A stretch of DNA of 64,000 nt, from positions 625,185 to 689,184 of the forward strand of contig VFIW01000016.1 in NCBI GenBank assembly GCA_006386115.1, in the 5' to 3' direction. Under the pieces are notes generated by a model. It saw only the letters and a list, made by a program, of their open reading frames with translations. It had not been told where the DNA came from and made no database searches. Origin of the DNA: Globisporangium splendens (Eukaryota; Oomycota; Peronosporomycetes; Pythiales; Pythiaceae). The position numbers were made by a program, and so were the translations under genes. Below are positions 20,880 to 63,714 of this stretch, piece by piece (positions within the stretch are counted from its first letter, which is position 1; every line of letters starts with the position of its first letter).

Positions 20880-21527
20880 CGCCGGCGACGACGGCGCCGA
20901 GACTCAGGCGAGGAGGACGATGACAGCTGCGACAACGACGATAAAGTAGATTTTGGTCGCTGCGCTGCGTGCAACCGCGTGAACCCTCAGTACATGTCGA
21001 CAAATCGGGTGACGGGCGCTCCATCTGTGCCGGTGTGTGATGTAAAGTGCGAGACCAAGTAATTGGCGTCGAAGGGGAAGGTTCCCACGGTATCTGCCAC
21101 TACGACTATAAAGGCTCGAAAGCACGTTGTGGAAGCTGATGCTGCTGGTGAGGACGGTGAGTCTGCGGGTGCGGCTGAAGATGGTGGTGAAGGTGGATAT
21201 GTGCGCTGCTTTATGTGCAATCGTGTGAGTCCACAATATATGCCGACAGATCAGGTGAAGAAAGTGCCTTGTGTGCCCGTTTGTAGTGCGGCGTGTGAGG
21301 CAAAACTACTGGCTTTGAAAGGAAAGAAGGCTCCTGCTAAGAGCGTAACGTTATCAAAAAAGCATGATCGAGAGACGACGAGTGCTCCTGTCGAAGATGA
21401 TGTTACTGCTGAGATCGATCCACCTGAGCCTGAACGTGTTGTGTGCTAAATGTGCTTTATGCCTGACCCCGAGTTCGATTCGCCCGATCGATTCCCCAAG
21501 AAAGCCCCTCCCGTTGAAGGTTTGTGA
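20880..21527 (+). pseudogene. Broken tandem duplicate of the zinc-finger N-terminus of the next gene
   Basis: One reading frame encodes three copies of the Cys finger found in the 21824 gene: CAACNRVNPQYMS...VPVCDVKC (about 20961), CFMCNRVSPQYMP...VPVCSAAC (about 21210) and a partial MCFMPDPEF (about 21450). Two TAA stops interrupt it at 21060-21062 and 21447-21449. Both fall where the intact gene has a Tyr codon (EEKYLASKG and VCYMCHM). A TGA at 21525 ends the frame. No counterpart of the enzyme or PHD part follows, so this is a 5'-only duplicate that has decayed. It might still give a short finger peptide, since each segment is open for more than 100 codons. Confidence 0.7.
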
Positions 21528-21823: not shown

Positions 21824-23827
21824 ATGGCGACGACGGCAGACGACGAGTTTGAGCTCAGCACGTGGTTCAACAGCGTCTCCGACAAGGAGAACGGCCTCAA
21901 CGGCGTGCTCGCCGCCAAGAGCTTCCGCGAGTGCAGCGGCGACAGCAAGCGCGACGACCGGAACGACACGCCGGATCCGTCCGTTTGCTACATGTGCCAC
22001 ATGCCTGGGCCGGAGTACATGTCCTCCGACAAGATCCGCAAAGCGCCGTCAGTGCCCGTGTGCTCGGAAGAGTGCGAAGAGAAGTATTTGGCGTCGAAAG
22101 GGCTGCGTCCAGCGCTGAAGAAGGAGAAGAAGCGAAAGCAAGACGAGGAAGAGGACGATGATGGTGACGGTGAAGAAGAAGAAGTAGACTATGCGCATTG
22201 CTACGTGTGTGAGCGCGACGGCCCAGAGTACATGTCGACGGATCAAATGAAGAATTTCCCCTCGGTGCCGGTCTGTGGCGTGGAGTGCGAAGCGGTGTAC
22301 CTGAAGTCAAAACATAAGAAGAACACAAAGCAAAGTGACAAGGCGACGCCGCCGAAGAAAGCCAAGAAGGAGAACAAGGATGGCGCCGCAAAGCGCTCGC
22401 TGAGCTTCTTGGAGGACCACCTGCTCGAAAACGACGACAGCAAAGGATACAAGAGCTGGTGGCTTCGCGCGCTGACGTTTTACGACTTTGTGTACCAACG
22501 GCACGCCATGTGGCACAGGTATGGTCCCACTTCCCCGTGGCATGCCGATTTGAATTTTCGAATGCTAATCCTGTGTGGCGTTTGTGTTGCACTGCTGTGA
22601 ATTAGCTACACCTACACGCCAGACTTGCCGAACGTGGACCCAGCTCTGACGAAATTTGGTATGTGGTTGCTGAATCTGGAGGTCACGAGTCCAGTGTGTG
22701 GGCTAATGAAATGCACGACTTTTGTGTCTGTAGCAACGTGGAATATTTACCGTGAGTTAGACCGGACCACTGCATATTTGCGCAAGAGCGTGCTGCGATG
22801 GCAAAAGGCGCATCAGGACCGCCGCAGCTTGCGCGAGATCCTGTGGATGGCCGTCGTGTTTCGATTCTGCAACAAGATTGAGACGTTCTATGATGTCCAG
22901 GGCATCCCAAAATCGGATGAATTCAAAGCGTTCAAGAAACGGTATGCACTGCCTTTATATGTGTTTATTTGTAATTTGACATTTGACAACAGAGAGTATT
23001 TACACATTTTACCTCTTTTGATGCCGCCGTTTAGCTTGTCGTCGTTAGTGAAGAAGAAGCCAAACACAGAAATCCTCGCCGGAGACCGCGACATGAACGT
23101 GGCCACTTATCTCCAGACGTTGGAAGACTTTTTGGACAATCTGGACCAGTGCACGTCCAAGGTGAAGAGCTGCACGACGATCAAAGAGATCTTTGAAGCG
23201 CTCCGAAATTTCAACAGCAATGCGCTCGGATCGTTCACCTGCTGGCAAGTCGTCTGCGATTTGATGGAGTTGAATATATTGCCGGAAGGCGTCGTGGAAG
23301 GTGACTTCATCTGGATGACCGCGGACGCGAAGCAGAGTCTGGTTCAGATCTTTGGTCAGCGCCGAGCTCGACCATCTGAGTTTGTGTCTCTTGCACGCAT
23401 CTTGCAGCAGCGACAAGCTCAGGGATTTAAAGCGCTTCAAGTGGAGTTCCCATACTTCATGGACCAGAAGTTGAACTTGAAGAACATTGGGCATGCTCTC
23501 CACGGCTACCAACTGTATCGCGATATCAAGCTTTACCAGAACAACCGATTTGTTGGCGCGACGGCTCCTGGAAAGTACGTGTCGCGATCTGTGCTGAACG
23601 ACCAGGAACCGTGCGAAATCTGCTCGAGCGACCAGGACGATCTGCTGCTTTGTGATCTGTGCCACCGCATGTTTCACACGGAATGCGACAATGTCGTGGA
23701 GGTGCCTCCAGCATCATGGGTGTGTCATGATTGCAAGAAGCTGTCGAATTACCAGGTTGTTGGCCTGGTTGAGACCCCCGTAAAAGCAGCCACAACAACC
23801 GAGCCGACGGTGATTTCCATTGACTAG
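21824..23827 (+). CDS. Zinc-finger/HMUDK-helical-like/PHD protein, predicted to act on modified DNA bases
   Basis: Exons 21824-22518, 22606-22658, 22734-22941 and about 23035-23827 give about 582 residues. Two treble-clef-like fingers come first (C55-C58-C80-C84 and C126-C129-C151-C155), each with a PEYMS(T/S)D core, separated by acidic and Lys-rich linkers. Next is a helical domain: ALTFYDFVYQRHAMWHR, TWNIYRELDRTTAYL, AVVFRFCNKIETF and FTCWQVVCDLMEL. These match my memory of the 5-hmdU DNA kinase helical / alpha-glutamyl-putrescinyl-thymine pyrophosphorylase family (HMUDK_hel), which phages use to build hypermodified thymines. A C4HC3 PHD finger closes the protein (CEICSSDQDDLLLCDLC...WVCHDC, about 23611-23740). 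The usual GPG-type loop near the end of the helical domain reads TADAKQSL here. Nuclear location is inferred from the PHD finger. The last intron's acceptor is uncertain (22992 or 23034; both keep frame). Confidence 0.75.
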
Positions 23828-25941: not shown

Positions 25942-28900
25942 ATGAGTGCGGCGGAGGCGCGCGCGGGGAAGCCGAATGACGCCGCGGACTTCCTGCGGCG
26001 GCTCTCGGTGGCCGACGCGAAGGTGCTGCTGGAGAGAACCAGGTTCGTTAATTGTACTCCCCGCTCTTTTGTTCCCCAAGTTGGACGCTAATATGAGGGA
26101 CACGCATGCTATCTCTGTGTCTGGATTGTTGTCGTGATGCTGGTGCAGAAAGGAGAAGGAGAACAAGACGAAGGAGATGCAGAAGATGATCGGCGTGCGA
26201 TATCGCGATCTCATCGAGTCTGCGGATAAAATCGTCAACATGCACTCGGCTGCGCTGCGTCTGGAGGGATCGTTGAAGGAGATGCCGGAGAAGTGGAAGC
26301 ACATTGAGGCGACGTTCGCGAATACACTAGCGCAAGCCAGTCGAGTACAGAAAACAGGAAGAAACCCTGAAGACCTCATGAAAGGAAACCACGTTGATGC
26401 TGTCGATTTGCAGGTGAAGAACGATGTCCGCGACCAAGTGGTGTTTCTCGTGACGGTCTCGGAGAAAATGTGGCAATTGCTGGATCGAGGCGAATCTTTC
26501 CGCGCTTTGCAGTTGTATCTGAAGGCGAAGGAAGTGTACTCTCTTCCTGATTTCGAGAAGCAGCAAGGCAGCTTTCCGTTTGTGCCGTCCGAGTGGTCAT
26601 GCATCGAGAGCTTTCGTCCGGTATGTGCATGCCTCATTGTCGCATGAATCGAATTGGGAATGCAAAGTTTGAATATGGGCTGAGCTAACATTTTTCCTAT
26701 GTTGCTTGCTAGCGAATCGTTGCGTGTGCGCAAACCTACTTGGCTTGTCGAGGCAAGGAGAGTAGCTTTTACGCTCAAAACCTGTGCACTCTGGCGGTGC
26801 TAGCAGAGCCAAGCATCACAATCGAGAACCTATTCGAAACATTCTTGGACTCTCGGTCCAAGTGGATGTCTTCGGACGACGAATCGCGAAAGAAAGAAAA
26901 AGCTCAAGCGTTTGCGGAGCAGGAACGACAGCTAGTCGTTATCCTTCGTTCGATGAACTTGACCGTGCTTCAGACGGAAGATATCTTCAATGCGGAGAAC
27001 AAGTTCGAGCTTTTGAAGCCAGCCTTCCGGCTGAAGCCTCAACTTGAAGCAGATCTAACGAAGTTTGTGACAACCGGAGCGCTCGGAGAGAAGATGACTC
27101 AGTGGTTCCTCATGGAACACAAAAAGGTACAAATAACGTTTTGTTGCTCGTTGTGCTTCGTAACGCTAACCGAATGACTTCTGCTTTTATAGATTGAGAA
27201 AGAGGTGTCTTCGGCTATTAATCAGATTTCGTCTATTGGTTTGCTGTCGAAAGTCCAATCCAAGTTGAGTCTCGCAAACCAAAAAGATGGCGATTGCTAT
27301 CAATCGAAGACTTGGCAGACGATCTCCGATTCTGTGTCGCAAACGAAACGCAATTTCCCAATCGATTCACCGTTCACTATTCTGTTTGCAGAAGCGTTTA
27401 GGAAGAGGACGAGAGATTTGGTGCAAAGTTCGTTTGTCGAAGCGCTCGAAGCGATCAAGAAGCAAATCCGTGACGTTGTCGGCAAATCAGTCGCTGAGAA
27501 TTCCGGACTGGTAGCGCGTATCGGGTGTGTCAAATTCTACGACTATTTTGAAATGATCCACAAGAAGGCAGCTGCACTGGATGCGAGCGATTTGCAAGCC
27601 GTGCTCATTGAAGAGTTTCTGCGCACTCTCTTGAAGCTGGTGGTGTTTTTCGAGAACGAGTATCCTCTTCGTACAAACACTCAGCAAACGAAGTACGAGG
27701 AATCGTCGACAAGCAACGATGCGACCAAATACCTGTGCATATCAAATATCCTGAGCTCGATATTAGCTGGATTCCCAGAACGCAGTGCGAAGCTGTTCCC
27801 AAATATGAGCGCTGCCTCACCGACGAATCGAACTGGGTTTGCGCGAGTGCGTGCCTCGTTTGAAGATCATGTCCACGAAGGGAGAGTCACAAGAGCCGCC
27901 TTGAATCAAGCATTACAGGTATGAATCTTGACGCAATAATCCCAATCCTTTCGAGGTGCTAACATACACGCATGTATTTGTGAACAACAGGAACACAATG
28001 ACAAGCAAAACACTCGGAGCTGCTTTATCGATGAAGAGCTGAGCCAGCTGAAGACTTTTGGAGTCCACTCGTTGTATTTGGTTCTTCAACTGAAACAGAG
28101 AAGCTCGTACCCTCAAATGTTTGCCGATATCATGCAAGAGCTTTCGTACGAATACTGCGAGGTGTGGGCGAGATCTCTGCTGCACGAGAAAATCGAACCG
28201 CTGCGTGAGCGCCTTCATATGGAGCAGTACGATTCAAGCAATCAGGTGTGAATGTATCGTTATTCTCGGCATGGCATGATGTGTGTTTCTGACGACTCCA
28301 TTTTCTGATGGTGCGTAGGATTGGATAAAGTCGCACGAAGGCTGGATTGAGCAAACGATCACTGAAGATCCCCTAGAAAGCGATCTTGACGACTCGGCTT
28401 CAGAGACAGAAGCTTTCGGCGAAGAGAAAGTCTGGCTTCCGTGGTGCGAGACCACGACTGTCTCCAGCTTCCTATTTCTGTGCTGCTATATGCTTGATGA
28501 AGCCAATCGACTGGTTCGGAACTCGGATGGCGCAGAAGAGAAGCACGTCGAGCTGATGCAACGAACGATTCGTGATGTGCTCGTCGAGCAGTTGACGATC
28601 ATCAGCGTCGAGGCATATAGCGAAGGTGTCTCTCTTCTCCTTCAAGCCAAGACCGAGCAGAAGCAGACCGTTCTCAACTTTGGGGAGTGTTGTATCTTGC
28701 AGTTCCTGTTCGATATGTACTTTGTTCGTGCGACGCTCGGCTTTTCGGATTTTATTCGCTTTGGTTGGGGCGACGAGTTGAATGAGGAAGAGTGTTCCCC
28801 TGGACTCTTGAGCTTGAAGAAGCTGTTTGAGAAGATGGAAGACTTCATCGATCCCGTTGATTGGGAAATCTATGGCCCACAGCTGATTGAGAACGTGGTG

Positions 28901-57118: not shown

Positions 57119-58168
57119 ATGAAGCGATCAAGCGACCAAGTGAAGCGCGAAGAACGGCCCGAGCCGAAGCGGCAGCGGACGACTCCCGGCTTGTACGACA
57201 TCTCCGCTATTCGCAAGAAGCGTGGAGGACGTCGGTTCTACAAGGAGTTGTTCTTCCTCTGGCGCAAGATGTCCGGCGGCGACGATCCTGGCCAGTCCAG
57301 CACAGCGAAGCTCGAGTCGTGGAAGACGTTTGTCCGACTCGAGAACGAGAATCTTGTCGAGCGTTTGCTAGGGAACCTAGGAGGCACGCTCGAGAACGAT
57401 CATAAAGAGCTTGGCTCTCGTCGTTCTAGTGCTCGCGAGAGCACTACAAGCTCTGTTCGTAGCTGTGAACCACGTCGGGAACATCAGACTGAAGAGTCTC
57501 TCGAGGTTCCCACGTGTCCGAGTCCGGCGGATAGCCAAGCCACCGTACTCTGTAGAAGCGTTGACGGTTCAACGACTTCTCTCCTCGACGACGAGTCGAT
57601 CGATCCTCGTGATCGACTATCGACTCAACGATCCAACGACGCTCTCCCTGATGATCGATCAGAGGAGGTGGGGCTGAACGCGAAAACGATTGAGCGACTC
57701 TGGAAGTGGAAGAGTGCTCACCGCGCTCAGATCGAGGCTCTTGAAGTTCGCAACGCGGTACTCGAAGACCGGTGCGAAAGCCTCGAAGACCGGTTGAAGG
57801 AGCAGGAGTCGAAGATCGACTTGCTCTTCGATGGTCTTGCCCAGCGTTCGGCAATGGAGTCACGTTTTGAACAGAGGTTCGAGAAGGTTCAAGCCGAGCT
57901 TGAACGACTCCAGAAGGCTGAGAAAGCTCGTGATGCGTATCACGAACGTCTACTGCGCTCTGTGGAAGAGGCAGGGACTTCTCTTGAGATACTTCGGAAG
58001 GAGTATCATGGTCGCCTTCTCGCGTTGGAGACAATAAAGGACGAGTCCTTTGATGTGCTTCAGCGCCTTTATGCCGAGAAGAAGCTCCATGGCGATGAGT
58101 TACAGACTCTTCGCGAGCTGGTGGAGCGACTTCAGGATCAACTTGATCATCCGTCAAGGGCTCTGTAG
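57119..58168 (+). CDS. Antisense coiled-coil ORF overlapping the Gypsy integrase tail
   Basis: 349 residues from ATG 57119, on the strand opposite to the element's pol. The N-terminus is basic (KRSSDQVKREERPEPKRQR, NLS-like). A segment GGRRFYKELFFLWRKM follows, then a Ser-rich linker. The C-terminal 150 residues are a continuous predicted coiled coil (RLWKWKSAHRAQIEALEVRN, LEDRCESLEDRLKEQESKI, ERLQDQLDH). Bases 57444-58168 overlap the antisense integrase ORF; the first 325 nt lie outside it. The start is 77 nt from the LTR edge, so transcription could begin in the LTR. I recognise no family. It may be a genuine second product or a by-product of codon constraint on the other strand. Confidence 0.5.
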   Translation: MKRSSDQVKREERPEPKRQRTTPGLYDISAIRKKRGGRRFYKELFFLWRKMSGGDDPGQSSTAKLESWKTFVRLENENLVERLLGNLGGTLENDHKELGSRRSSARESTTSSVRSCEPRREHQTEESLEVPTCPSPADSQATVLCRSVDGSTTSLLDDESIDPRDRLSTQRSNDALPDDRSEEVGLNAKTIERLWKWKSAHRAQIEALEVRNAVLEDRCESLEDRLKEQESKIDLLFDGLAQRSAMESRFEQRFEKVQAELERLQKAEKARDAYHERLLRSVEEAGTSLEILRKEYHGRLLALETIKDESFDVLQRLYAEKKLHGDELQTLRELVERLQDQLDHPSRAL

Positions 58169-59244
58169 GGTTCGCTGACCCACTTGGAAGGTAAGGCTTT
58201 AGTCGACCTACGTAGAACGTAGGGTGTAGTCGCATGCGTTTAGGAATGTCTAGTGTGTAGGCATCACCATTGCATTTCACTACCCTGAACGGTCCAATAT
58301 ATCTTGGCAGAAGTTTCGAACTCCCCAAGTTAGACACTGCGTGTTCAGGTAGATTAGCCGTGCTAAGTAATACAAGATCATTGATCTTATAAACTTGCTT
58401 GTTCTTCCTTCCGCTCCTATCTGCTTGTTCCTTTTGCAGATCCTGAGCCTTTGCAATTGCGTCTCGAACAAACCTCACAACGGCTTGTCTCCTCACAATA
58501 AAGGCGTCGACTTGCTGTTCCTCACGACTTGTCATGTCGTCTAGAGGTTTCATCGAGTCAAAATTCGCTTTTAACTCGGCAACAGCATTCAGATCCGACT
58601 GTGGCTCCTTAGCCATAGTCTCTCCCCCACTTAAGGTAGAAACCTCTCCCACTAGTGACGCTGGCACTCTCGGGTGGAGTCCGTAGTTCACATAGAACGG
58701 GGTATGACCTGTCGAGACATGCGTGGAGTTGTTCAACGCAAACTCTGCGAGAGGGAGAAACTCACTCCACTCTCCGAAAGACGTCGCATAACTGCGCAAC
58801 ACGTCTTCAAGGACACGATTCACTCGTTCAGTTTGACCGTCTGTCTCTGGGTGTGCTGCTGTTGACATGGATAGTTTTGTATCCAAAATGCCAAGCAGAG
58901 TTCGCCAAAACCTAGACGTAAACCGAGTGTCACGGTCCGATACGATCTCCGAGGGCAGACCATGTAGACGGAACACCACGTCTACAAAGACTTTCGCAGT
59001 CATCTCTGCCGAGATCTTATCCGAGACCGGCGCAAGATGCACCATCTTGCTGAATCGGTCCACAAACACAAGGATGCCATTGCGTCCGTGTTTGTCTCTT
59101 GGAAGTCCGAATATGAAATCCATACTCACAGACTTCCAACTGTCCTGAGGGACAGCCAATGAACGAAGTGGGGCCCGAGTAGAGCCGGATGGCTTAACTC
59201 TTTGGCACACTTCGCAAGTACGCACATACTTGCGAACCCACTTG
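57444..59244 (-). CDS. Gypsy pol C-terminus: integrase core, GPY/F and chromodomain
   Basis: About 600 residues. The reading frame runs 23 nt into the adjoining LTR, so the first seven or so codons of the open frame (from 59267) are not native. The element part begins WVRKYVRTCEVCQRVK (end of the zinc-binding domain). The DDE core follows: MDFIFGLPRDKHGRNGILVF, IVSDRDTRFTSRFW and TDGQTERVNRVLEDVLR. Next are the GPY/F module (RYIGPFRVVKCNGDAYTLDI), a low-complexity linker and a chromodomain (WIVESIVDHEDRS, FYRVRWLGYPPDSDTWEP). Chromodomain integrases steer insertion to marked chromatin. No internal stop. Confidence 0.93.
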
Positions 59245-59895
59245 TGTAATGGGCTATACCTAGCCATTACATGAAGGTGGATCTGTTCCCAGATCTAGTG
59301 TGCCGCACACCACCTTCAGTGTGCATTGTGGAGAGACAATTAACAAAGGGATTACGGTACGACAGTCCCACATGCACATGTGACGTCATCCCATGACGTC
59401 ACGAGCGCTCTCTGTGCTGATCAGTGCAGAATGTTGTTCACATGTACTAATCAGTACAGAGTGATGACATCCATGTACTAATCAAGTACTGCGTGATGGT
59501 TCCTACTTGGGAAACTGCACTGGTGATGAGACCGACGTGTGTCTGCCACCTAAAGTGAGTGGCTGTAGCCAATCACTTTGCAGGGAATTTTCCACAGGAC
59601 TTCAAGTTCAAGTTTCCAGTAGATCCCGTAGGTTCAACCTCAGTGTACCCAAGGTTTTATATATCATATTCATAGGTTTTATTGTGTATGTTTAGGTTTT
59701 AGTTATAAAACCTCTAGGAGCCCTTGGGGTTCATTTACAAGTAGCGACAGGAACCATAAGCATTTTAATTCAGTTGCAAATTTTCTCTCAAGCCCTCAAG
59801 TCGTCTTCTCTCCAGATTCTCTGTGAGAATTGCTTCCTCTGGCACAAGCGTGTGTGCCGTGTTTCGGGGACTGTTGTGAACAGCGCCCCATTACA
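59245..59895 (+). repeat. 5' LTR of the plus-strand Gypsy element
   Basis: 651 nt, TGTAATGGGC...CCCATTACA. Paired TGACGTCA sites at 59381-59388 and 59394-59401. A TATA-like ATATAT at about 59658 and a conserved region to the end match the 56403 LTR in inverted orientation. Confidence 0.92.
59415..59499 (+). repeat. Imperfect tandem repeat in LTR U3
   Basis: Three related units about 30 nt apart around GCTGATCAGTGC, GTACTAATCAGTAC and GTACTAATCAAGTAC. They are largely self-complementary and absent from the other LTR. Confidence 0.6.
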
Positions 59896-59897
59896 CC

Positions 59898-59914
59898 TGG
59901 TAGCACTTCGAGCG
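59898..59914 (+). promoter_or_regulatory. Primer-binding site
   Basis: TGGTAGCACTTCGAGCG begins two bases after the LTR. The TGG start would pair with a tRNA 3' CCA. The tRNA species cannot be named from this. Confidence 0.6.
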
Positions 59915-59999
59915 GTCCTTCCAGCGACCAAGCCAAGAAAGGTTTGACGAAGCGGCTTTGAGCACTTCGCGCATTCCTGTCCAAGACCTACTTCCGTCT

Positions 60000-61115
60000 A
60001 TGCCTGGGAACATGGAAGGAGTAGATGTGCCACTCGGTCCAGCAGTACCGGAAACTGTCGAGTTGACGAATGAGTATTTTCCTCATTTGTCTCCTTATGA
60101 GTGGTCGGCGCTGGAGCGGATGCGAAACGTCATCGGGGAGGCTGCTGTAATCAGCCTGCTACGATCGGCGTCTCCTGAAGACCAGAAGAACGCCGCGGTC
60201 AGTTTCATGCACCACGAGATTATTGAATCTCGAAAGCAGGTCGCAACCCCTGTTTCGTCCTTCAGGACGGTGCCGCTGAAGCTGGACGTCTCTCCGTATC
60301 GTGGCGGAGAGAACGAACCTCTTTCGAGATGGTTCGTCGAGTTGGATGCAGCCATCACTGCAAGACAACTGCGAGACCCTTCGCAGCGAGTGTTGTTCGC
60401 GATGTCCAACCTTGCGGGTCGTGCGAAGAGCTGGGCTTATGGGAAGCGTTTGTCGGATCCAAACTGCTTCTACAGCTACGAAGACTTCAAGGCGGAGCTC
60501 AAGGCAGCGTTTGAACCACCGCAGAGCGAGTTCCGTGCGCGTGCCGAGTTCCTCAAGCTTCGCCAAGGCCGTTTCGATCTGCATTCGTATGCACAACGAG
60601 CGCGCTTCTTGGTCTCAAGCATCGTGGACGAGCCGATTGACGTTCCAACGCAAGTTGTGACGTTCATGACGGGTCTGAACGACGGGCCAATCCGGAACCA
60701 ATTGTTCCGTGAGTATCCCAAGACGCTGGACGAAGCCATCAGCCGTGCGATGCAAGAAGAGTTCAGCATCAAGCAAGCCAAGTTCCAAGGGTTTGTGTCG
60801 AGACCAATTCGGCAATCGAATGTCGCGCACGATGGCCCAGAGCCGATGGACATCTCGTACATTTCCACGCCTGGAAATGAACGTCCTCGCAACGATGGAA
60901 AATGTTTCCGTTGTGGGAAGTCGGGTCACTTCGCTCGGAACTGCAAAGTGTCCTTGCCTGACCGGCAAACGACACAGGGTTCGCGCTCGAACAACTACGG
61001 TCGCGGCCGTGGGTTCGATCGTTCCCAACGTTCAAAAACGGGAACGACCAGTAGGGGCGGGGCCTCCTACTGGGCTCGAAAAGAGGACTGTGTTTGTGGA
61101 TACACAGGACTCTAG
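60000..61115 (+). CDS. Gypsy gag polyprotein
   Basis: 371 residues from the first ATG (60000); the frame is open from 59958. It has the retrotransposon gag core (VSPYRGGENEPLSRWFVELD, ANLAGRAKSWAY, LRQGRFDLHSYAQR, FMTGLNDGPIRNQLFREYP) and a CCHC knuckle (CFRCGKSGHFARNC, about 60903). It ends at TAG 61113. Its last 400 nt overlap the start of the pol frame, which is +1 relative to gag. Confidence 0.92.
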   Translation: MPGNMEGVDVPLGPAVPETVELTNEYFPHLSPYEWSALERMRNVIGEAAVISLLRSASPEDQKNAAVSFMHHEIIESRKQVATPVSSFRTVPLKLDVSPYRGGENEPLSRWFVELDAAITARQLRDPSQRVLFAMSNLAGRAKSWAYGKRLSDPNCFYSYEDFKAELKAAFEPPQSEFRARAEFLKLRQGRFDLHSYAQRARFLVSSIVDEPIDVPTQVVTFMTGLNDGPIRNQLFREYPKTLDEAISRAMQEEFSIKQAKFQGFVSRPIRQSNVAHDGPEPMDISYISTPGNERPRNDGKCFRCGKSGHFARNCKVSLPDRQTTQGSRSNNYGRGRGFDRSQRSKTGTTSRGGASYWARKEDCVCGYTGL

Positions 61116-63714
61116 CCCCAATGTGCATGATGCACATGCAGTTTCCACGAGGGAGAACAGTGTCAGTCAAACGTCAAGTTTGATCGTTCTCAAAGTTCAT
61201 GTAGACGGTATTGCAACACCTCTGCGTGCTTTGGTTGACACTGGTGCATCGAACAATTTTGTTCGAAATGAAGTGATCGTCAGGCATGGTGTCTTCGTGC
61301 CTGATGCGAACGAAGAGAAGACGATGGTTATACGGTTGGCCAACGGGTCGACTGTGAAGATGCCGAAGCGCGTGGTGCGCTTGGCAATGAAGTGTGAAGA
61401 TTTCCGAGGTGAAGACGAGTTTATTCTACTCGACCTCGATGACAAGTTTGACATCATCCTGGGCATGCCGTGGTTGAAGCGTTATCAACCTAGCATTGAC
61501 TGGATGAAGATGAAGATCTCCGTTGACAAGTCACGTGATGTTGACTTGTGCTGCACAACAACGGATGAAGTGGTGTGGGTTTACACATCTGTGGAAGAGA
61601 TCCCGGATGGCCCTTGTGATATTGCGGTGTGCGATGGCCCCCCATGTTCACGAGCGGTACCCATCTTGAAGAAGACTACTGGAGGTGGAGCAGTCAGGCG
61701 CCAACAAAAGACTGTCTCCTTTGCCATCGACCCCATGGGTGAGGCGATGTGCGTGGAAGAAACGAATGGGAAAAGAGCCGAAGAGCCATCCCGAGAGAAG
61801 AAGAAGAAGACCAGCAAGGAGAGTGTCCCGTGTGCCCCTGATCAAGGTACAAGTTACGGTGACGAAGGAAGTGTCCAAGCACAAGACATTTCAAGCGAGT
61901 TTGCGAATATCGCGGTCTACAATGAAGATGGTGACGTGGATATAATCCGTCACGTGAAGATTGAAAATCCTCCAAGCTCTGTTGAAGATTTGGTTTCCTT
62001 GCCGTGGATGAGCAAGAAGACGCTGAAGCGTAGCCTAGCGAAAGGCGAAATTTCGCAGGTCTGCATGATCGTCGATGAAGTTGCCGACGATGTCATCAAC
62101 ACTGTGGAAGTGTTCGATGAGAAGACACGGAAGGAAAGGTTTGATGAGCAGTCGTGGGACGCTCTCAAAACGAACCCCGTGTATGAACTTGTCAAGGAAT
62201 ATGAGGACATATTCCCTGACAAGGTGCCGGACGAACTGCCATTCGATAGAGGCGTTCGTCATGAGATTGACATACTTCCTGGCACGAAGTACTGCATCAC
62301 ACGGCAGTGGCCGTTGCCAAGAGAACAAGTCGTTGCGATCGACGAGTTCTTTGCGCAACGTGCCAAGGCTGGGCATGTGCGAGAGAGCAAGTCTCCACAT
62401 TGTAGCCCAACCTTCTGTGTGAAGAAGGCAACTGGTGGTTGGCGCATCGTTCACGCCTTCAACAAGCTGAACGACGCTACCATTCCAGCCCAAACTCCGG
62501 TTCCACGCAAGGATATGATCCTTGACGGAATGGTTGTCAGTACTGTCTTCAGTGCTATCGATCTGAAAGATGGGTTCTATCAGATTCGAATGCGCGAAGA
62601 TGATGTTCCACTAACTGCAGTGAGTACCCCGAGTGGTATGCTGTGGGAATGGTTAGTGATGCCACAGGGACTGAAGAACGCTCCTGCGACTTTCAATAGG
62701 ATGGTCACGAATCTACTTCGTCCATTGAGAGGGTTTGCACCGAGTTACTTTGACGATATATTCGTTCATAGTAAAACCACGGGTGAAAAGTCTGACGTTG
62801 ATGTTCATCTTGACCATCTCCGTCAAGTCTTTCAGGTCATGCGAGAGAACAAGCTCTACGCTAACCTGAAGAAGTGCATATTCTTTGCACCAGAGATCCC
62901 CGTTCTCGGCTGCTTTGTGGGAAAGCATGGCGTTCGAGTCGATCCGGAGAAGGTCAAAGCTATTGACGATTGGCCTGTGCCTCAGAACGTCAAACAGCTA
63001 CGACAATGGTTGGGTTTGGCCAATTACTTGCACAAGTACACGCGCAATTATGCAGCGTTGGTGCAACCGCTCACACAGCTCCTGAAGAAGGACATTGAGT
63101 GGGAGTGGTCCAGTGACCATCAAATGGCATTTGCCGAAGTGAAGAGGAGTCTGCGAGAAGGTCCCGTGCTGGCAATTGCAAACCACGACAAGCCTTTTCA
63201 TGTGGTTTGCGATGCAAGCGACTATGCCATCGGTTGCGCGTTGATGCAACACGATGATGAGGGTCATGAGCGAGTTGTGTCGTATCAGTCACGACAACTC
63301 CGACCCGCAGAACGGAACTACCCAGTTCATGACAAAGAACTTCTGGCGATGAAGTATTCTTTGGTCAAGTTCCGTGTCTACCTGCTTGGCGAGGAGCGCT
63401 TCGCGATCTACACAGATCATGCGTCGCTGCGTACAGCGGTAAAGACTCCTCACTTGTCGCAAAGAATGGCGAGATGGTTCTCCTTCTTTGCAGAGTACAA
63501 CTTTGTTGTACACTACAAGCCAGGCAAGACTAACATCTTAGCCGATGCGCTGTCAAGACGTCCGGATTACGATCCGAAGACCAAGAGTGAAGGCACGGAC
63601 GGAGCGTGTCGACTCTGCGAAGATGTTCAAGCGATCGCGGTGCAGCTACGACTCAGTTGCGAGAAGAGATCGTCGAAGGGTACAAGTCTGACGAAACATG
63701 TCAGGACTTGTTGA
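60709..63714 (+). CDS. Gypsy pol: protease, reverse transcriptase, RNase H (frameshifted 3' end)
   Basis: Aspartic protease LRALVDTGASNNFVRNE (about 61220) and ILGMPWLKRYQPSIDW. Reverse transcriptase: KATGGWRIVHAFNKLNDATI, FSAIDLKDGFYQIRM, MPQGLKNAPATFNRM and YFDDIFVHSK (the YxDD box). RNase H: FHVVCDASDYAIGCALMQ, YTDHASLRTAV and ILADALSRRPDY. The frame breaks near 63645. The downstream frame (63606-63908) carries the HHCC-type start (VHRFRVHNGLLHYAVEQ) and then meets a TAG at 63906 inside the usual GGHLG motif. Expression of pol would need a shift from gag in the overlap. Confidence 0.92.
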   Translation: MSIPRRWTKPSAVRCKKSSASSKPSSKGLCRDQFGNRMSRTMAQSRWTSRTFPRLEMNVLATMENVSVVGSRVTSLGTAKCPCLTGKRHRVRARTTTVAAVGSIVPNVQKRERPVGAGPPTGLEKRTVFVDTQDSSPNVHDAHAVSTRENSVSQTSSLIVLKVHVDGIATPLRALVDTGASNNFVRNEVIVRHGVFVPDANEEKTMVIRLANGSTVKMPKRVVRLAMKCEDFRGEDEFILLDLDDKFDIILGMPWLKRYQPSIDWMKMKISVDKSRDVDLCCTTTDEVVWVYTSVEEIPDGPCDIAVCDGPPCSRAVPILKKTTGGGAVRRQQKTVSFAIDPMGEAMCVEETNGKRAEEPSREKKKKTSKESVPCAPDQGTSYGDEGSVQAQDISSEFANIAVYNEDGDVDIIRHVKIENPPSSVEDLVSLPWMSKKTLKRSLAKGEISQVCMIVDEVADDVINTVEVFDEKTRKERFDEQSWDALKTNPVYELVKEYEDIFPDKVPDELPFDRGVRHEIDILPGTKYCITRQWPLPREQVVAIDEFFAQRAKAGHVRESKSPHCSPTFCVKKATGGWRIVHAFNKLNDATIPAQTPVPRKDMILDGMVVSTVFSAIDLKDGFYQIRMREDDVPLTAVSTPSGMLWEWLVMPQGLKNAPATFNRMVTNLLRPLRGFAPSYFDDIFVHSKTTGEKSDVDVHLDHLRQVFQVMRENKLYANLKKCIFFAPEIPVLGCFVGKHGVRVDPEKVKAIDDWPVPQNVKQLRQWLGLANYLHKYTRNYAALVQPLTQLLKKDIEWEWSSDHQMAFAEVKRSLREGPVLAIANHDKPFHVVCDASDYAIGCALMQHDDEGHERVVSYQSRQLRPAERNYPVHDKELLAMKYSLVKFRVYLLGEERFAIYTDHASLRTAVKTPHLSQRMARWFSFFAEYNFVVHYKPGKTNILADALSRRPDYDPKTKSEGTDGACRLCEDVQAIAVQLRLSCEKRSSKGTSLTKHVRTC

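Follow-up and report, generated by a model that had tools for sequence, protein, structure and literature searches.

Among the known systems closest to the protein reported here are the phage 5-hydroxymethyldeoxyuridine (5-hmdU) DNA kinases; a phage enzyme of this kind phosphorylates 5-hydroxymethyluracil (hmU) in DNA (PMC7653180, PMC6457204). Their helical domain (HMUDK_hel, PF18723; formerly aGPT-PPlase clade 1), found in SP10, M6-like, and PhiW-14 phages, is either fused to a P-loop kinase domain (PF18748) or, in M6-like phages, accompanied by it as a separate neighboring gene. Iyer and colleagues are said to have predicted eukaryotic members of the family in 2013. Here, we describe a gene of the oomycete Globisporangium splendens, located on the plus strand at positions 21824–23827 of a 64,000-nucleotide stretch of contig VFIW01000016.1 (hereafter, the window), whose product contains a domain homologous to the phage helical domain over most of that domain's length. 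The oomycete protein likewise carries the NxYRELDR core, R293, F386, and D394 but, unlike the phage kinases, has no PF18748 domain, has the GPG and C-E-K residues replaced, and is fused to Cys fingers and a PHD finger. We give about an even chance to the reading that it is a nuclear, chromatin-bound DNA-binding protein, in which the HMUDK_hel core, a relative of the module that phages and prokaryotes use for thymine hypermodification, has an altered active site and would serve as a reader or scaffold, not as a base-modifying enzyme.

The coding span corresponds to a single gene of 4 exons encoding 582 amino acids. Open reading frames of 258 and 400 codons are united by 3 short GT-AG introns (22519–22605, 22659–22733, and 22942–23034), each of a length divisible by three; the raw frame runs through introns 2 and 3 without a stop, and the end of intron 3 was placed by means of the Globisporangium ultimum protein P0002. 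Two Cys fingers, a helical region, and a C-terminal PHD finger, all named in a preliminary description of this DNA, are present in that order on the plus strand within the span. The stretch QRHAMWHR quoted there is also encoded, except that its last R lies in an intron, and splicing gives WHSYTYT instead. The 582-residue product matches PF18723 with 83.5 bits (2.2e-23; cut-off 25), in agreement with the earlier family assignment, whereas PF18748 was not found among its Pfam matches at E ≤ 0.01 and a search of NCBIfam gave nothing above cut-off. The match to the PHD profile PF00628 falls narrowly below the cut-off of 24 (23.3 bits, 6.6e-05), which is exceeded by the raw reading frame (25.0 bits) and by the orthologue P0014 (33.8 bits). 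With the raw frame as the query, the solved chains nearest to the PHD finger in sequence were those of BRD1, ZMYND8, and NSD3, followed at lower rank by CHD4, AIRE, and PHF21A. Several of these PHD fingers bind histone H3 unmodified at K4. Chromatin reading through the oomycete finger is plausible.

Structure prediction and profile comparison both place the core with the phage proteins. The oomycete profile aligned with a phage and plasmid profile at 99.7% probability in hhalign, and the comparison with phage hmdU kinases suggested in the preliminary description came out positive: the predicted model of a 95%-identical orthologue (pLDDT, the per-residue confidence score, mostly >90 in HMUDK_hel) matches the fold of phage 5-hmdU DNA kinases, including the 5-hmdU DNA kinase of SP10 and helical-domain proteins of phages. 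In the PDB, the same model matched PUGT, a glycinyltransferase acting on 5-phosphomethyldeoxyuridine (5-PmdU), the queuosine hydrolase DUF2419, and helix-hairpin-helix (HhH) DNA glycosylases, and a second, separate model returned these fold matches in identical order. PUGT was the closest PDB fold for both models, and both also matched Mag2, which is homologous to glycosylases and reshapes DNA at abasic sites; with Foldseek against the PDB alone, no match reached E ≤ 0.001. The HMUDK_hel core probably has a helix-hairpin-helix DNA-glycosylase-like fold. The family profile (A3) had no sequence match to any PDB chain, and no solved PF18723 structure was found. Sequence homology with PUGT (PF18724) is not claimed, since the profile-level comparison is weak and unconvincing (hhalign probability of 11.6% for the phage family and 0.2% for the oomycetes). 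The HhH-GPD glycosylases (OGG1, Mag2, and EndoIII) and DUF2419 resemble the oomycete model in its helical HhH-type fold but have no sequence match to the family profile.

The feature that sets the oomycete proteins apart is the loss of 8 of the 18 residues that are near-invariant in their relatives. We aligned 224 domains, including 169 non-identical relatives outside the oomycete and eukaryote-type sets, 25 eukaryote-type sequences, and 23 oomycete sequences, and called near-invariant the 18 columns that are ≥97% identical among the 169. The label “eukaryote-type” rests on similarity, most such proteins being metagenomic and without an assigned taxon. By majority, eukaryote-type proteins keep 17 of these residues, unlike the oomycetes, which keep 10 (R226, N253, Y255, R256, L258, D259, R293, F386, D394, and L442); N253, R256, D259, F386, and D394 are present in every oomycete sequence. 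A335, G414, P415, G416, C475, E476, and K479 are lost from all 23 oomycete sequences and retained in 80% to 100% of the eukaryote-type sequences with a letter at the position, whereas G488 is lost from both groups alike. The GPG loop, intact in 169/169 relatives, occurs in 0/23 oomycetes, which carry S or T, then L, V, or A, and then D in its place. The same is true of the C-E-x-x-K motif in the last helix, absent from all 23, whereas C and E are found in 168/168 and K in 166/168 of the relatives with a letter there. Both signatures are likely tied to catalysis in phages.

The orthologue search, with clusters at 90% identity, matched 28 proteins, and their named sources belong to 8 genera: Globisporangium, Peronospora, Phytophthora, Pythium, Bremia, Plasmopara, Lagenidium, and Nothophytophthora. 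Among the matches listed, Saprolegnia, Aphanomyces, and Albugo were not represented, although no search was aimed at these genera. The G. ultimum protein is 95% identical overall (77% to 100% by region, and 99% in the helical domain). Compared with 8 other oomycete proteins, identity is 62% to 66% in the helical domain, 53% to 62% in the PHD finger, 44% to 62% in finger 1, 37% to 53% in the short linker preceding the PHD finger, and 16% to 44% in the N-terminus and the acidic and basic linkers. For finger 2, it is 26% to 53% in 6 of these proteins and 6% to 12% in the 2 Pythium proteins, from which this finger is absent or mostly missing (P0014 and P0016). At the opposite end, all but 1 of the 25 oomycete proteins (P0002–P0026) close with the pattern [VI][VI]S[VI][DE], a tail which we take to resemble a SUMO-interacting motif. 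By the conservation of the helical domain next to far more variable linkers, the coding region is a real gene. One of the orthologues (P0022) is labeled “putative transposable element”; a transposon origin was judged unlikely, with a single PF18723 match in the 53.3-Mb genome and each named species appearing once among the orthologue matches, where paralogues closer than the 90% clustering would not show.

Relatives outside the oomycetes are numerous. A profile search matched 305 proteins, 120 of which were listed, and a eukaryote-weighted search, in which the best 8000 candidates by shared words were scored, recovered at least 39 proteins, including an MMETSP transcript (P0131) that combines HMUDK_hel with a clear C-terminal PHD finger (35.2 bits). 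Other eukaryote-type proteins have a Cys-rich end (P0087 and P0108), preceded in P0087 by a Tudor-like domain (PF21743) and HMUDK_hel. In one tree of 55 rows, the 7 from oomycetes and the 12 from eukaryote-type proteins fell together into 1 set with support of 100/100, and an 87-row quick tree gave the same grouping (27 rows, support 99). Members of both groups share the LK-x-I-x-HAL signature and residues that differ from the phage and prokaryote majority, such as WQ for YE at positions 389–390 and E397. A single entry into the eukaryotic line is the simplest reading of these sequences, the direction of transfer being inferred. Within the tree, the signature loss falls on the oomycete stem, whose branch measures about 1.5 changes per site, with strong conservation thereafter. 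A literature search covering titles and abstract openings returned no publication that deals with the oomycete gene or with hmU in oomycetes, and as far as our searches reach, neither the joint eukaryotic grouping nor the loss of the signature in oomycetes has been described.

Among mobile elements, tblastn with a metagenomic relative (P0028) matched 277 of 50,697 phage records and 21 of 72,556 plasmid records; scans of genome contigs of prokaryotic species with A2 and P0087, and of viral contigs with P0028, gave no locus. Viral loci fetched with the eukaryote-weighted profile encoded a relative in 256 cases, of which the best 80 were kept. Counts from these 80 are rough, many being near copies and some short. 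At least 1 further modification-type gene lies near the domain in 62 of the 80: a thymidylate-synthase-like gene in 61, a TAGT glycosyltransferase in 43, and a P-loop kinase in at least 8, the last a lower bound from a profile seeded with 2 proteins. None of the 3 genes was present in 18 loci. Restricting the count to the 58 loci flanked by at least 3 kb on both sides gave 46, 29, and 8, respectively. The glycosyltransferase and a detected kinase never occur together (0/80), as expected of a shared DNA-side module. In the Sphaerotilus phage SN1, the domain gene adjoins a PF18748 P-loop kinase, and a PF18724 amino acid:DNA transferase, a pyridoxal-phosphate-dependent (PLP) enzyme, a radical SAM protein, and a thymidylate synthase/hydroxymethylase are also close. 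In other loci (for example, L033, 5929–7595, and L035, 1861–3527), the HMUDK_hel gene is followed directly by the TAGT glycosyltransferase and then by the thymidylate-synthase-like gene, and no P-loop kinase was detected. Loci of this kind suggest glycosylation of hmU using the same helical protein, and since the domain is accompanied by a glycosyltransferase, with no kinase detected, in 43 of the 80 loci, “kinase helical domain” is probably too narrow a Pfam name. In pelagiphages, aG/PT-PPlase1 has already been described as paired with thymidylate synthase, in some cases close to a glucosyltransferase (PMC9599517), and a recent paper lists aGPT-PPlase among predicted defense domains, with a 5-hmdU DNA kinase named in a figure legend (PMC13092281).

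Several database labels on these genes attracted attention. PHROG 800 (phrog_800) is labeled “terminase small subunit,” yet P0028 matches its positions 281–471 of 511, and in several phage records (hits H1, H14, H16, H54, and H55) the matches to the kinase or helical genes bear the label “terminase small subunit” or “baseplate hub protein”; misannotation is likely in both cases. Stand-alone HMUDK_hel genes, in which Pfam finds only PF18723, occur on plasmids of Erythrobacter aureus (L005, 4474–5487), between dnaQ and dnaE, and Natronomonas (L004, 4453–5469), both annotated as “nucleotide kinase domain-containing protein.”

How the oomycete protein works is best weighed against these relatives. 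The preliminary description proposed an enzyme acting on a modified or damaged pyrimidine. Membership in PF18723, the 10 near-invariant residues that persist, and PUGT as the closest PDB fold would all suit an enzyme that acts on a modified pyrimidine in DNA, either by itself or together with an unrelated kinase or transferase. We nevertheless regard this as unlikely: GPG and C-E-K are gone from 23/23 oomycete sequences, the protein has no P-loop domain, 62 of the 80 viral loci have at least 1 further modification-type gene near the domain, and no kinase, transferase, glycosyltransferase, or TET/JBP partner was found in the oomycete genome. Specifically, PF12851 (TET/JBP), PF18748, PF18724, and PF20691 had no match in the genome, in a search that intron-split genes can escape and for which controls were partial: PF18748 was matched in 4/4 viral records at E ≤ 0.001 (above cut-off in 2/4) and PF20691 in 1 of 14 control genomes, PF12851 and PF18724 in none. 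As several residues near-universal in the relatives are lost, the oomycete protein is more likely to recognize DNA than to modify it. The long stem branch, with strong conservation after it, is more in line with an altered function than with decay, and the oomycete-specific W412, D416, and H475, invariant among the 23 sequences, likewise speak more for a new role under constraint than for decay. Against this stands the variation among oomycetes at positions 414, 415, 476, 479, and 488, which, taken alone, would fit relaxed constraint as well. In another reading, the helical domain is retained as a structural scaffold only, with function residing in the PHD and Cys fingers; the lost signature residues agree with that, but we consider it improbable, as no other part is as well conserved among the distant oomycete proteins as the helical domain, which also has conserved charged residues.

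The fold also invites comparison with enzymes that handle bases in other ways. A DNA glycosylase or repair factor that excises or marks damaged bases in chromatin, such as hmU from oxidized thymine, would be in keeping with the HhH glycosylase-like fold and with Mag2 among the matches. Its prospects appear slim, however: with residues mapped by eye, the position of the canonical Lys of bifunctional glycosylases is occupied by Phe, the acidic residue near the catalytic Asp position is not conserved in the alignment rows compared, and ordinary HhH-GPD glycosylases were found in the genome by the same search method. Activity on RNA or a modified nucleotide, in the manner of the queuosine hydrolase DUF2419, one of the fold matches, is highly improbable given the presence of a PHD finger, the position of the phage relatives in DNA-modification clusters, and the absence of a sequence match between the family profile and any PDB chain. 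Under the reader or scaffold reading that we prefer, the PHD finger would dock on a histone H3 tail lacking the K4 trimethyl mark, while the helical domain, which retains 10 of the 18 near-invariant residues in a fold suited to handling bases but lacks the signature likely catalytic in phages, would grip duplex DNA and probe or hold a base, perhaps an oxidized or modified thymine. A more specific version, in which a phage-type thymine-hypermodification module was turned into an oomycete chromatin reader of modified or oxidized thymine (such as hmU) beside a particular histone H3 state, is speculative, and we would not expect it to be correct in this form.

Table 1. Features of the HMUDK_hel gene and its product (positions are those of the window).
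Feature	Position	Strand	Basis
Exon 1: N-terminus, Cys fingers 1 and 2, acidic and basic linkers, first part of HMUDK_hel	21824–22518	+	colinear with G. ultimum P0002
Exon 2	22606–22658	+	GT-AG introns, P0002
Exon 3: NxYRELDRxT and CNKIETF motifs	22734–22941	+	GT-AG introns, P0002
Exon 4: remainder of HMUDK_hel, PHD finger, VISID tail, stop codon	23035–23827	+	GT-AG introns, P0002
Cys finger 1, treble-clef-like (CxxC...PVCxxxC), residues 54–84	21983–22075	+	
Cys finger 2, treble-clef-like, residues 123–152	22190–22279	+	
HMUDK_hel (PF18723), residues about 215–492, split by all 3 introns	22466–23554	+	Pfam, model, hhalign
NIYRELD motif, residues 253–259; invariant N253, R256, D259	22742–22762	+	kept in 23/23 oomycete sequences
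Hairpin region GSFTCWQVVCD, residues 384–394; invariant F386 and D394, kept	23228–23260	+	alignment
Site of the relatives’ GPG loop; here T-A-D, residues 414–416	23318–23326	+	alignment
Site of the relatives’ C-E pair; here H-G, residues 475–476	23501–23506	+	alignment
PHD finger, residues 512–552 (CEIC...CDLC...H...C...CHDC)	23612–23734	+	Pfam
C-terminal VISID tail, presumably SUMO-interacting-motif-like	23810–23824	+	terminal motif in oomycete proteins

Just upstream of the gene, positions 20955–21500 of the plus strand contain decayed extra copies of its Cys fingers: 2 stretches resembling the fingers, followed by the beginning of another, lie in 1 frame interrupted by TAA codons at 21060–21062 and 21447–21449, both of which fall where the intact fingers carry Tyr. 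This region looks like a degenerate tandem duplication. The neighboring plus-strand genes, a transaldolase (PF00923; 18769–20019) and a Vps51/Exo84-like fragment just below cut-off (26177–26647), have no evident link to DNA modification. Farther away, at 57444–63714, frames read by eye resemble a retroelement, integrase/chromodomain-like on the minus strand and gag-pol-like reverse transcriptase on the plus strand.

Collectively, a DNA-base-modification module of phages and prokaryotes is fixed in eukaryotic proteins with putative chromatin-reading fingers, across 8 oomycete genera in a group that includes major plant pathogens. This raises the questions of whether a DNA-modifying module has become a chromatin reader and whether there is a modified thymine for it to read. 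If the protein does read modified thymine, oomycetes would possess an unreported base mark together with its reader.
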